Assembly (NCBI GenBank): GCA_947498125.1
Contig: CANMJH010000001.1
Location: 496,001-560,000, forward strand
Direction of reading: 5' to 3'
From: an uncultured Nioella sp.
GTDB taxonomy: Bacteria > Pseudomonadota > Alphaproteobacteria > Rhodobacterales > Rhodobacteraceae
DNA: 64,000 bases
In this document: positions 47,504-51,455 of the stretch, piece after piece
How the letters are laid out: each line of letters opens with the position of its first letter
Position numbering within the stretch: position 1 is the first letter of the stretch
Notes under the pieces: model-generated
Database searches by the model: none
What the model saw: the letters and a program-made list of their open reading frames with translations, nothing else
Told to the model about the DNA's origin: nothing
Program-made: the position numbers and the translations under genes

Positions 47504-48711
47504 AACGGGTTGTTATCACCGGTCAGGGCACGATCAACGCGCTTGGGCCCGATGTTGCCGCCACGAAAGAGGCCATGCGCGAGGGGCGCTGCGGGATTTC
47601 CTCGCTTGAAATTCGCGATGTTGAACGTCTTGCCGTGCAGATCGGCGGGCAAATCAAAGGCTATGAGCCTGAAGCGCTGTTTAATCGCCAGCAAATCTCA
47701 CTTTATGACCGGTTTACCCAATTCACCTTGATTGCCGCGCGTGAAGCGATTGGGCAATCGGGGCTTGAGTTTCACGGGGATTTGGCCGTGCAATCCGGTG
47801 TGGTTTTGGGCACCTCTGGTGGGGGGATGCAAACGCTGGATGAGAATTATCGCTCGGTCTATGAAGACGGCAAAAACCGCGTGCATCCCTTTGTGGTGCC
47901 GAAGCTGATGAACAATGCTGCGGCAAGTCATGTCAGCATGGAGTTTAACCTCAAGGGCCCAAGTTTCACTGTCGCAACCGCCTGCGCCTCATCCAACCAC
48001 GCTATGGGGCAGGCGTTTTCAATGATCCGGTCCGGAATGGCGCAGGTCATGGTCACGGGCGGATCGGAATCGATGCTTTGCTTTGGGGGGGTGAAGGCAT
48101 GGGAAGGTCTGCGGGTCATGTCCAAACAAGCGTGCCGGCCTTTCAGCGCCACGCGCGACGGTATGGTGCAGGGCGAGGGCGCCGCCGTTTTTGTTTTTGA
48201 GGATTACGATCACGCCCGCGCACGTGGCGCCGAGATTTTGGCGGAAGTGATTGGGTTTGCCATGACCTCGGACGCCGCCGATATCGTCATGCCCTCCAAG
48301 CAAGGCGCGGCACGCGCGATAGCAGGGGCGCTGCAGGACGCAAAGATTGCCCCCGAAAAAATTGGGTATATCAACGCGCATGGCACCGGTACGGCCGCCA
48401 ATGATAAAGTTGAATGCGCGGCTGTCGCGGATGTTTTTGGTCATCACGCGGATGATCTTATGATCTCATCCACGAAATCCATGCACGGGCATTTGATTGG
48501 CGGGACCGGTGCGGTCGAGCTTTTGGCATGTGTCATGGCCCTGACCGATGGAGTCATTGCGCCCACGATCGGCTATGAAGAGCCCGACCCGGAATGCGCG
48601 TTGGACGTGGTCCCTAATGAGGCGCGCGAAGCCAATGTAGATGCGGTTCTTTCAAACGCCTTTGCCTTTGGCGGGTTGAATGCCGTGATCGCCTTGCAAA
48701 AAGCCCCATAG
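47500..48711 (+). CDS. beta-ketoacyl-ACP synthase (FabF/NodE-like)
   Basis: A 403-residue condensing enzyme. Nucleophile Cys in VATACASSNHAMG, first His in NAHGTGTAANDKVE, Lys in STKSMHGHLIGGTGAVE with the second His, and the terminal NAFAFGGLNAVI. Paired with a dedicated ACP it resembles the NodF-NodE or AcpXL-FabF arrangements. Likely extends or specifies acyl chains used by the preceding LpxD. A strong terminator ends the operon at 48712-48743. Confidence 0.92.
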   Translation: MKRVVITGQGTINALGPDVAATKEAMREGRCGISSLEIRDVERLAVQIGGQIKGYEPEALFNRQQISLYDRFTQFTLIAAREAIGQSGLEFHGDLAVQSGVVLGTSGGGMQTLDENYRSVYEDGKNRVHPFVVPKLMNNAAASHVSMEFNLKGPSFTVATACASSNHAMGQAFSMIRSGMAQVMVTGGSESMLCFGGVKAWEGLRVMSKQACRPFSATRDGMVQGEGAAVFVFEDYDHARARGAEILAEVIGFAMTSDAADIVMPSKQGAARAIAGALQDAKIAPEKIGYINAHGTGTAANDKVECAAVADVFGHHADDLMISSTKSMHGHLIGGTGAVELLACVMALTDGVIAPTIGYEEPDPECALDVVPNEAREANVDAVLSNAFAFGGLNAVIALQKAP

Positions 48712-48743
48712 AAAAAGCGCGCTGACCGACAGCGCGCTTTTTT
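48712..48743. terminator. bidirectional terminator
   Basis: AAAAAGCGCGCT and AGCGCGCTTTTT form a 12-bp stem with a 7-nt loop and a T6 run; A5 at the left gives the same for the minus-strand ialB-type gene. Confidence 0.93.
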
Positions 48744-48767: not shown

Positions 48768-49388
48768 TTATTCAGCCGCTTCTGCTTCGGCTTGGATTTG
48801 CGCGATCGCCGCTTCGTTATACTCTTCCAATGCGGCGAAGCCTGCGGTGAACCCAGACAGCGACAGGGTCAGCGGGATCAGCTGATCGGGAACCTGAAGT
48901 GGCGCAATCGCAATGGTGACTTCGTTGCCGCGCTCAAAGGCCTGAATTTCTGCGGCTGTAAGACCAAGGCGCACATAGCAACCCAAGGTTTGGCAGAAGC
49001 TAAAGGGGTACACGCGGGGCTGGCTGCTATCGACTGCCATCCGCAACTGAGCGGTCAGAAGTGTATCCAACGGCGTGATGATTGTTGCTCCGGCGATCAG
49101 TTCGCCCTCGTCCTGAACGTCAAACAGGTTAAATTCGGCAACGGGGTTGCCGGCCGGATCAAGCAGAAGCTGATACAGCTGGCAAGGATCAATTTGACCT
49201 TCAGGCGCCACAAGGCAGCGCATTTCCCAATCGCCATGTCTCTCTAATTCATAGGACGAGCCAACCTCTTCGGAGCCCAGGGACAGGCCCAATGTATCAG
49301 CTGCGGCCTCAGTATCCGATGTCTGGGACACGGCTGGTGTTGCGATCAGAGCAGCCAATGCCGCTGCAAACAGAAATTTGGTTTTCAT
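48768..49388 (-). CDS. invasion-associated locus B (IalB) family protein
   Basis: A 206-residue periplasmic protein with a Sec signal peptide (MKTKFLFAAALAALIATPAVS). Family motifs: HGDWEMRCLVAPEGQIDPCQLYQLLLDPAGNPVAEF and FCQTLGCYVRLGLTAAEIQAF, each with paired Cys likely to form disulfides. IalB proteins were named in Bartonella, but homologues are common in free-living Rhodobacteraceae and have no proven role. ATG 49388 has GAGG upstream. Its own promoter candidate lies at 49431-49459. Confidence 0.88.
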   Translation of the reverse strand: MKTKFLFAAALAALIATPAVSQTSDTEAAADTLGLSLGSEEVGSSYELERHGDWEMRCLVAPEGQIDPCQLYQLLLDPAGNPVAEFNLFDVQDEGELIAGATIITPLDTLLTAQLRMAVDSSQPRVYPFSFCQTLGCYVRLGLTAAEIQAFERGNEVTIAIAPLQVPDQLIPLTLSLSGFTAGFAALEEYNEAAIAQIQAEAEAAE

Positions 49389-49430
49389 CAATGCGCCTCG
49401 ATTGTGATGCGAAAATCCGTCTCGGAGCTG

Positions 49431-49459: not shown

Positions 49460-49524
49460 GTGAAAATTAACCCTGCGGATGTGTCCCGCGCCAAACCTTG
49501 CCGATTTCGGCTAATTTTTCGACT

Positions 49525-49640
49525 AACCCCAAAAAGCGAAAGGGCCCGCAGAACGGGCCCATTTCATTGTCTTTTTTTCTCTCCCTGTCGGACTGGCCGA
49601 CTTATGGAGGCACGCTAGGCCAAGCATTTGCACCCGTCAA
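49525..49640 (-). ncRNA. candidate small RNA with promoter and terminator
   Basis: On the minus strand TTGACG (49640-49635), 17 nt, TAGCGT (49617-49612) predicts a start near 49605. The ensuing ~80 nt contain a hairpin GTCGG-ccagt-CCGAC, a purine-rich AGGGAGAG stretch, and a terminator GGGCCCG-ttctg-CGGGCCC (49560-49542) followed by TTTCGCTTTTT. A micro-frame MKWARSAGPFAFWG starts at an ATG 14 nt after AGGGAGAG and runs into the terminator stem. It is 140 nt before the IalB gene, which has its own promoter candidate. Confidence 0.5.
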
Positions 49641-49707
49641 CAGTGTAAATGGCAATTTTGGCCAGAAATTCGGACCGGTTAAGGAATTAGGCAAAAAGTG
49701 ATCGAAC

Positions 49708-49748
49708 AAAAAAAGAACCGCGCCTAGATGGTTTGATCTAGGGCGCGG
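49708..49748 (-). terminator. minus-strand terminator without an annotated gene
   Basis: CCGCGCC(C)TAGAT and ATCTAGGCGCGG form a 12-bp stem with one bulged C, followed on the minus strand by TTCTTTTTTT (complement of 49708-49717). No gene on that strand lies upstream within 49749-49877, so it suggests a second short transcript or read-out from the HerA-like gene region. A plus-strand 20-codon frame with AGGGAGG lies at 49771-49833, unassigned. Confidence 0.6.
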
Positions 49749-49877
49749 CCAGTTGACAGGGAGGAAGTTCATGCCGCGAAGGTCATTGACCCTCGGTCAT
49801 CGGCACGGGTTCATACTGGCACAACACAGTTAACATTGTATTGTGTGCGCCAAACATAACGGATGAGAGGGCGGAAT

Positions 49878-51455
49878 ATGGGCGACCGGATATTTATTGG
49901 CGGCGGCGGAGACGGCAACGCAGAGGCCCAGAACCTGTTGATGGGCTACGCAAACCGTCATGGCTTGATTGCTGGTGCAACCGGCACGGGCAAAACTGTT
50001 ACGTTGCAAATTCTGGCCGAAAGCTTCTCCGCCGAGGGCGTCCCGGTTTTCCTCAGCGACGTTAAGGGCGATCTTAGCGGGCTTGCCGCCGCTGGCCGCA
50101 CGGATTTCAAACTGCATGACGCATTTATGGAACGGGCCCAGACCATCGGCTTTGCGGATTATGCGTATTCCAGTTTTCCCGTGACTTTCTGGGACCTTTA
50201 CGGTGGTGCCGGGCATCCCGTGCGGACGACAATTTCGGAAATGGGACCGCTGTTGATCGCGCGGCTTCTTGAGTTGAGCGAGGCGCAAGAAGGTATCTTG
50301 AATATCGCGTTTCGCGTGGCCGATGAACAAGGTCTTGCGCTGCTTGATTTAAAAGATCTGCAATCGCTTTTGGTGTGGGTTGGTCAGCATCGCAAGGATC
50401 TGTCCTTGCGCTATGGCAATGTGTCGACCGCATCGATCGGCGCTATTCAGCGGCGGCTCTTGGTGCTTGAAGGGCAGGGCGGCGAGAACCTTTTCGGAGA
50501 GCCTGCGCTGGAACTGACCGATATCATGCACACAGATCCTGATGGGCGGGGCCGGATCAATATCTTGGCCGCGGATAAGCTGATGGGATCGCCCCGGCTT
50601 TATGCAACCTTCCTTCTTTGGCTTTTGTCTGAGTTGTTTGAAACTTTGCCCGAGGTTGGCGATCCGGAAAAGCCGAAATTGGTCTTCTTTTTTGACGAGG
50701 CGCATCTGCTTTTTGATGACGCGCCAAAGGCTCTGGTTGATAAGGTCGAGCAAGTGGCCCGCCTGATCCGGTCGAAAGGTGTTGGGGTCTATTTCATTAC
50801 GCAAAACCCGGCAGATGTTCCCGAAGATATCTTGGGCCAACTCGGCAACCGCGTGCAGCACGCGTTGCGCGCCTTTACTGCTAAAGACAGGCGCGAGCTT
50901 CGGCAAGCCGCCGAGAATTACCGCGACAACCCCGCCTTTAGCACCGAAGACGCCATTCGCGAAGTTGGCGTTGGGGAGGCTGTCACCTCGCTTTTGGAAC
51001 GCAAAGGTATTCCCGGTGTTGCAGAGCGAACGTTGATCCGTCCGCCGTCATCGAAATTGGGGCCGATTTCAGAGAATCTGCGCGCCGAGGTTATTGCGGC
51101 GTCGCCAATCGCGGGAAAATACGAGGCAGAGATTGACCGCGAAAGTGCCTTTGAAATTCTGACGCGCCGCGCCGAAGAGGCCGCGCAAGAGGCTGAAAAA
51201 GCCGTTGAGGCTGAGGAGGAGGAAGAAAGCCCCGCAGTGCGTGAATATAGGGCCGGCCGGCGTTATTCCGGCAGCCGGGTAAGCCGGTCGGCGCCGGTTA
51301 CAAGTTCCCCCGCACGCAGCCGATCATCCTCATCATCACGGCGCAGCGATAGTGTCGGTACGGCCTTTGCGAAAAGCTTTGCCCGTCAACTTGGTACGCA
51401 ATCGGGCCGCGCCGTTGTGCGCGGCGTTCTTGGTGGGCTGTTTCGCGGGCGTTAG
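49878..51455 (+). CDS. HerA-like P-loop ATPase (DUF853)
   Basis: A 525-residue ATPase of the HerA/FtsK superfamily. Walker [19 protein letters not shown] (about residue 36), Walker [17 protein letters not shown], sensor-like [30 protein letters not shown]. The last 90 residues are acidic, then Ser/Arg-rich low complexity, ending in a short Gly/Arg segment. ATG 49878 ([10 protein letters not shown]) has a purine-rich GAGAGGG site; ATG 49863 has none. The partner nuclease of HerA (NurA) is absent, so the function is unknown. Confidence 0.88.

Follow-up and report, generated by a model that had tools for sequence, protein, structure and literature searches.

What does the minus strand between ialB and a divergent herA-like gene encode, and on what would its product act? 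We examined these questions in the window, the whole 64,000-nucleotide stretch of DNA that was analysed, for which an earlier note had proposed a compact, free-standing small RNA (sRNA) with its own promoter and terminator. This RNA, hereafter RNA B, and its gene neighbours are organized as follows.

49612–49640, minus strand: promoter of RNA B, read from the sequence, with TTGACG at 49640–49635, a spacer of exactly 17 nt and TAGCGT at 49617–49612.
49531–49605, minus strand: RNA B, ~75 nt, its ends placed from the promoter and the terminator.
49587–49601, minus strand: 5' hairpin GUCGG-CCAGU-CCGAC, supported by covariation.
49581–49598, minus strand: core GGCCAGUCCGACAGGGAG, complementary to the core of the adjacent RNA A and of SorX/SorY-type sRNAs.
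49571–49586, minus strand: accessible purine stretch AGGGAGAGAAAAAAAG.
49531–49560, minus strand: intrinsic terminator, stem GGGCCCGTTCTGCGGGCCC at 49560–49542 and T-rich tail TTTCGCTTTTT, from a terminator scan and homologues.
48768–49391, minus strand: ialB, an IalB-family protein gene downstream of RNA B (Pfam PF06776, E 3.7e-30).
49863–51455, plus strand: herA-like gene, divergent from RNA A and RNA B (Pfam PF05872, E 1.3e-217).

The short hairpin, the accessible purine-rich stretch and the GC stem with its T-rich end all occur on the minus strand at the positions previously assigned to them, as do the -35 and -10 elements with their exact 17-nt spacing, and the RNA likely starts near 49605. 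The predicted fold of the 81-nt RNA B strand has an energy of -33.7 kcal/mol (z -4.2) and beats 200 of 200 shuffles. No promoter in the RNA B region reached the threshold of 9 of 12 in a consensus scan, whereas the same scanner listed the terminator, so that the case for the promoter is weak, and unproven, from one sequence.

Homologous loci strengthen this case considerably. DNA similarity to the stretch carrying RNA A and RNA B was detected in 273 of 395 family genomes, and 132 distinct RNA B homologues were drawn from the loci collected. The arrangement TTGAC-N17-TAnnnT stands at the right place before the hairpin in 129 of these 132 sequences (spacer of exactly 17 nt in 127, -35 TTGACG in 108, -10 TAGCGT in 99), with 10–17 nt between promoter and hairpin. 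A terminator stem follows on the 3' side of the hairpin in 129/132 homologues and is built from 105 different stem sequences. Conservation extends beyond the hairpin stem to the loop and to the RGGGAG of the purine stretch, whose A-rich part is variable according to column counts.

Many loci of our first RNA B alignment had been fetched by exact pattern, which makes the invariance of the core in that alignment partly an artefact; we therefore redid the pair counts on loci picked by similarity or by model. In this wider set, whose alignment was fitted to the structure and hence favours it, 9 of 13 pairs changed on both sides, and no shuffle equalled the observed values. Compensatory changes affect both helices, including the terminator stem, and the 5' hairpin covaries at 2 of its 5 pairs, with 99% of cells paired. 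The earlier note had proposed a covariance search in Rhodobacteraceae as a check: our model R1, built from 58 sequences, matches 130 of 149 genomes of the family (the figures are also given as genera), with a single match each and two exceptions. Across a class-wide sample of 337 genomes, strong matches (43 bits or more) all fall within Rhodobacteraceae and no convincing match was obtained outside the family, where five weaker class matches proved to be terminators devoid of the RNA B core. RNA B had no match in the plasmid collection, and no Rfam covariance model overlaps it, whether at the gathering cut-off or with E-values of up to 5, ruling out a known Rfam family. Compared across the family, these features identify RNA B as a conserved sRNA of ~75 nt with a predicted housekeeping-type promoter and intrinsic terminator; conservation across the family and covariation give good support to the free-standing unit proposed earlier.

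A clue to function, absent from the earlier note, comes from the complementarity of RNA B to RNA A and to SorX/SorY-type sRNAs. In Rhodobacter sphaeroides, the regulators SorX and SorY are induced by stress and act on transporter mRNAs during photo-oxidative stress, their known targets being the mRNAs of the malate and spermidine transporters; alpha-r8 RNAs are distributed across Alphaproteobacteria. The opposite strand of the RNA B core is CUCCCUGUCGGACUGGCC, near the active core of both SorX and SorY; the conserved part of RNA B is the complement of the SorX/SorY-type, alpha-r8-like active core CUCCCUGUYGGACYUGG. RNA B is the complement of the SorX/SorY/mmgR core and not a member of those families. 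The adjacent RNA A resembles their members instead.

49701–49806, minus strand: RNA A, an alpha-r8/SorX/SorY-like candidate between RNA B and herA on the strand of RNA B, ends approximate.
49747–49764, minus strand: core CCUCCCUGUCAACUGGCC of RNA A, predicted to pair with the RNA B core at -34.4 kcal/mol.
49710–49748, minus strand: terminator of RNA A, stem CCGCGCC..TAGAT / ATCTA..GGCGCGG, then TTCTTTTTTT, found by inspection of the sequence.

RNA A reads CTTCCTCCCTGTCAACTGGCC, followed by its terminator. It has a CCUCCCUGU core and a terminator in common with SorX (RF02784), SorY (RF02651) and mmgR/alpha-r8 (RF00519), but differs from their members in scoring weakly and far under the gathering cut-offs (16.2 versus 46.6, 16.7 versus 111 and 14.8 versus 41 bits, respectively; the R. 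sphaeroides RNA A reaches 22.9 bits with the mmgR/alpha-r8 model). The exact alpha-r8 10-mer UUUCCUCCCU, a core taken from PMC12559287, is not present in RNA A, which carries CUUCCUCCCU (9/10 positions). No promoter proper to RNA A was identified, the nearby conserved promoter-like pair facing herA. That pair, CTGGCA-N17-TATTGT at window positions 49816–49844 on the plus strand, points at herA and probably serves it rather than RNA A, because related sequence persists in several loci that lack RNA A.

RNA A cannot be the strict partner of RNA B. A CTCCCTG core lies 100–240 nt upstream of RNA B in 88 of 129 loci, and in the other 41, where none occurs within 320 nt upstream, RNA A is missing or degenerate; two of these 41 (L048 and L075) carry the variant CTCCCTCTC. 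Since RNA A is wanting in so many loci, it is not the sole partner. Two more candidates of the SorX/SorY type are encoded elsewhere in the window's own genome, each with a terminator.

C1:582019, minus strand: trans sRNA candidate with core CCTCCCTGTTGGACTTCGG, found by pattern and terminator.
G000:C2:509406–509423, plus strand: SorX-like trans sRNA candidate L174 with core CCTCCCTGTTGGACTGGCC, found by pattern and terminator.

L174 (C2:509406) is preceded by a TTGACG motif and ends in a strong terminator, and its core CCTCCCTGTTGGACTGGCC makes it the best trans partner of RNA B. Genome-wide there are three copies of the 13-mer GTCCRACAGGGAG, one in RNA B and one opposite each of the two trans sRNAs, and none of its reversed control. 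In R. sphaeroides, the shared pattern has just two exact matches, CCTCCCTGTTGGACTTGG in SorY and CCTCCCTGTTGGATCTGG in SorX. We take the genome used (G052) to be that of strain 2.4.1, as its SorY match starts at 1,632,645 (published 5' end, 1,632,642) and its SorX match at 2,598,225 (published end, 2,598,224). The complementarity thus spans several related sRNAs: RNA A, the two trans sRNAs, SorX and SorY.

Because terminators dominate whole-RNA duplex energies and render them uninformative, we replaced that calculation with core-against-window and cofold tests. The RNA B core hybridizes with predicted energies of -34.4 kcal/mol to RNA A and of -38.8 and -41.5 kcal/mol to the trans RNAs of its own genome, and of -35.3, -38.6 and -39.3 kcal/mol to RNA A, SorY and SorX of R. 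sphaeroides; for every partner, 0 of 2000 shuffles were as strong. When the 64 kb was scanned in 42,648 windows, RNA A was the best site for the RNA B core save for RNA B's own antisense strand. After the cost of unfolding, the net pairing gain is -17.3 to -21.0 kcal/mol, compared with means of -6.0 to -9.6 kcal/mol for shuffled RNA B cores. For the first trans sRNA, the value of one core-shuffled RNA B lay within 0.2 kcal/mol of that of the real RNA, which counts against a sponge function and leaves the net-gain comparison for that RNA not decisive alone. Presence across genomes also agrees with a link: a SorY-model match is absent in 11 of 149 genomes, all 11 of which also lack RNA B, and RNA B alone is absent in 8 more (Fisher 5e-12, with relatedness ignored).

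Leaders that such sRNAs might silence were observed in a sister genome, G001. At L237 (G001:C1 ~641468, minus strand), three tandem CCAAAGTCCAACAG motifs immediately precede the ATG start codon of a gene for a predicted ABC-transporter substrate-binding protein. These sites complement the SorY-like core of the same genome, CTCCCTGTTGGACTTTGG, and the leader is a likely multi-site sRNA target as judged by its motifs; the 13-mer pattern revealed no such leader in the genome to which the window belongs. A second leader, L245 (G001:C3:182100–182112, minus strand), carries GTCCAACAGGGAGGAACCCGCATG, where the sRNA complement overlaps the presumed ribosome-binding site. RNA B copies the leader motif of G001 but lacks a conserved start codon and runs into a terminator; a decoy is the simplest reading.

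With moderate confidence, we propose that RNA B serves as a sponge, or decoy, of SorX/SorY/alpha-r8-like sRNAs and relieves the repression that they exert. Being complementary to the working part of stress-related sRNAs, RNA B probably soaks them up and frees silenced messages. Once transcribed, its 5' hairpin and the following AGGGAG would mimic the ribosome-binding-site region of an mRNA. The accessible AGGGAG is predicted to contact the single-stranded CUCCCU of SorX/SorY/alpha-r8-like sRNAs, RNA A included, and pairing in the cell would then spread through the small hairpin to give a duplex of ~17–21 pairs. This duplex would occupy the mRNA-silencing part of the sRNAs. RNA B probably also promotes the decay of its partners, and target mRNAs would be relieved from repression, as in the precedent of CrfA and SisA in Caulobacter.

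In Caulobacter crescentus, CrfA sponges the alpha-r8 RNAs SisA-D, whose 10-mer UUUCCUCCCU is matched by a complementary, G/A-rich stem-loop of CrfA, and a pulse of CrfA lowers SisA about five-fold (PMC12559287). CrfA pairs by its second stem-loop (G49-C63), is induced by carbon starvation and depends on Hfq (PMC12559287). RNA B likewise has a stem-loop rich in G and A that is the complement of the alpha-r8-type CCUCCCU core and, by sequence logic, would work like CrfA. The two differ in the pairing element, which is the first hairpin in RNA B, in the partner core, which is the longer SorX/SorY-type CUCCCUGUYGGAC for RNA B and UUUCCUCCCU for CrfA, and in the promoter, which is of housekeeping type in RNA B. 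The likeness lies in this pairing logic; R1 has no convincing match outside Rhodobacteraceae among the 337 class genomes. RNA B is also similar in size to R. sphaeroides StsR, a 72-nt, RpoHI/RpoHII-dependent RNA that acts on another sRNA, UpsM, by pairing with it (PMC8307010). We rejected an identification with StsR, drawing the distinction from the UpsM site: RNA B has no comparable site in the UpsM region, where its best energy is -24.0 kcal/mol, against -38.6 kcal/mol for SorY.

The gene order around RNA B brings in a second reading, in which RNA B acts chiefly as an attenuated 5' leader of ialB. On this reading, the small RNA would arise by premature termination, and SorX/SorY/A-type RNAs would bind the leader and control the read-through or decay of ialB mRNA. 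Of the 112 loci with sufficient sequence, 111 have ialB just downstream on the strand of RNA B, and the herA-like gene lies upstream and divergent in 96 of 108. At the R. sphaeroides locus (L161, G052:C4:1424000–1430000), a catalase gene beside an oxyR-like gene replaces herA upstream of RNA A and RNA B, so that RNA A and RNA B lie between ialB and catalase there; the A-B-ialB block thus stays together as its upstream neighbour changes. Beyond ialB, a strong 14-bp terminator-like hairpin with A and T runs on its flanks (window 48711–48743) separates a fabF-like gene (plus strand) from the convergent ialB (minus strand) and could serve both genes.

As katE of R. sphaeroides is RSP_2779, the numbering implies that ialB should be RSP_2778. 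Excerpts of PMC8625941 describe RSs2778, renamed UdsE, as a northern-validated, 5'-UTR-derived sRNA of R. sphaeroides whose 5' end coincides with a transcription start and which is affected by RNase E and PNPase; in those excerpts, UdsE also appears in co-transcripts with the mRNA that follows it and shows no Hfq effect, and no function is given for UdsE. From gene order and numbering, the R. sphaeroides A/B locus probably encodes RSs2778/UdsE, as RNA A or as RNA B, and a transcript of one or the other has probably already been seen. If RNA B is UdsE, this co-transcription and the lack of an Hfq effect in the excerpted text count against a sponge, the latter setting it apart from the Hfq-dependent CrfA. 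A 5'-UTR-derived UdsE found in co-transcripts with its mRNA, as excerpted from PMC8625941, would also suit an ialB leader. Against this, the RNA B terminator is strong and conserved, the pairing site lies outside the terminator stem, the core fits a whole class of sRNAs coded elsewhere, and RNA B and ialB may be mere neighbours. We regard a role mainly as ialB leader as unlikely, although sponge and leader functions could coexist.

Less probable still, and in our view quite doubtful, is that RNA B is an ordinary regulator of pyrimidine-rich mRNA stretches for which the SorX/SorY-type match is secondary. In its favour, the predicted fold leaves RGGGAG and an A-rich stretch accessible, but conservation spans the whole extended complement of the sRNA core, loop and flank included, and the complement of the 13-mer occurs in this genome only in the two trans sRNAs.

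The earlier interpretation fared well in its small RNA and poorly in its alternative, a leader peptide or dual-function RNA, which was based on a micro-frame.

49523–49567, minus strand: 14-codon frame MKWARSAGPFAFWG and stop, judged not to be a gene.

In this strain, an ATG does follow an SD-like GGGAG. Nevertheless, only 46 of 132 RNA B homologues have an ATG no more than 26 nt from GGGAG, at varying distance and frame and with unrelated peptides, 64 of 132 have no ATG, GTG or TTG in that region, and the frame (49567–49523) crosses the terminator stem. No conserved short reading frame exists, and we rejected the micro-frame as a conserved peptide; a coding role for RNA B is highly improbable. 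A chance hairpin and terminator with no dedicated RNA, which the empty single-sequence promoter scan might suggest, has a negligible likelihood, being removed by the promoter and terminator stem kept in homologues and contradicted by family-wide conservation, synteny and covariation.

The sponge that we favour would be an sRNA of a new sequence family, often beside one of its presumed partners. We give an even chance to the broader view that RNA B founds a family-wide sponge RNA which sets SorX/SorY/alpha-r8-like activity, often next to its target RNA A in an sRNA/anti-sRNA locus, and which may have arisen independently of CrfA. The literature cited here does not describe how SorX/SorY-type RNAs are turned off in Rhodobacteraceae; if our reading is true, a family-wide and nearly always single-copy complement offers a testable answer. 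It would also assign a role to RSs2778/UdsE, probably an earlier sighting of the transcript, and, together with CrfA and SisA, would suggest that the sponging of CCUCCCU-type sRNAs recurs in Alphaproteobacteria.
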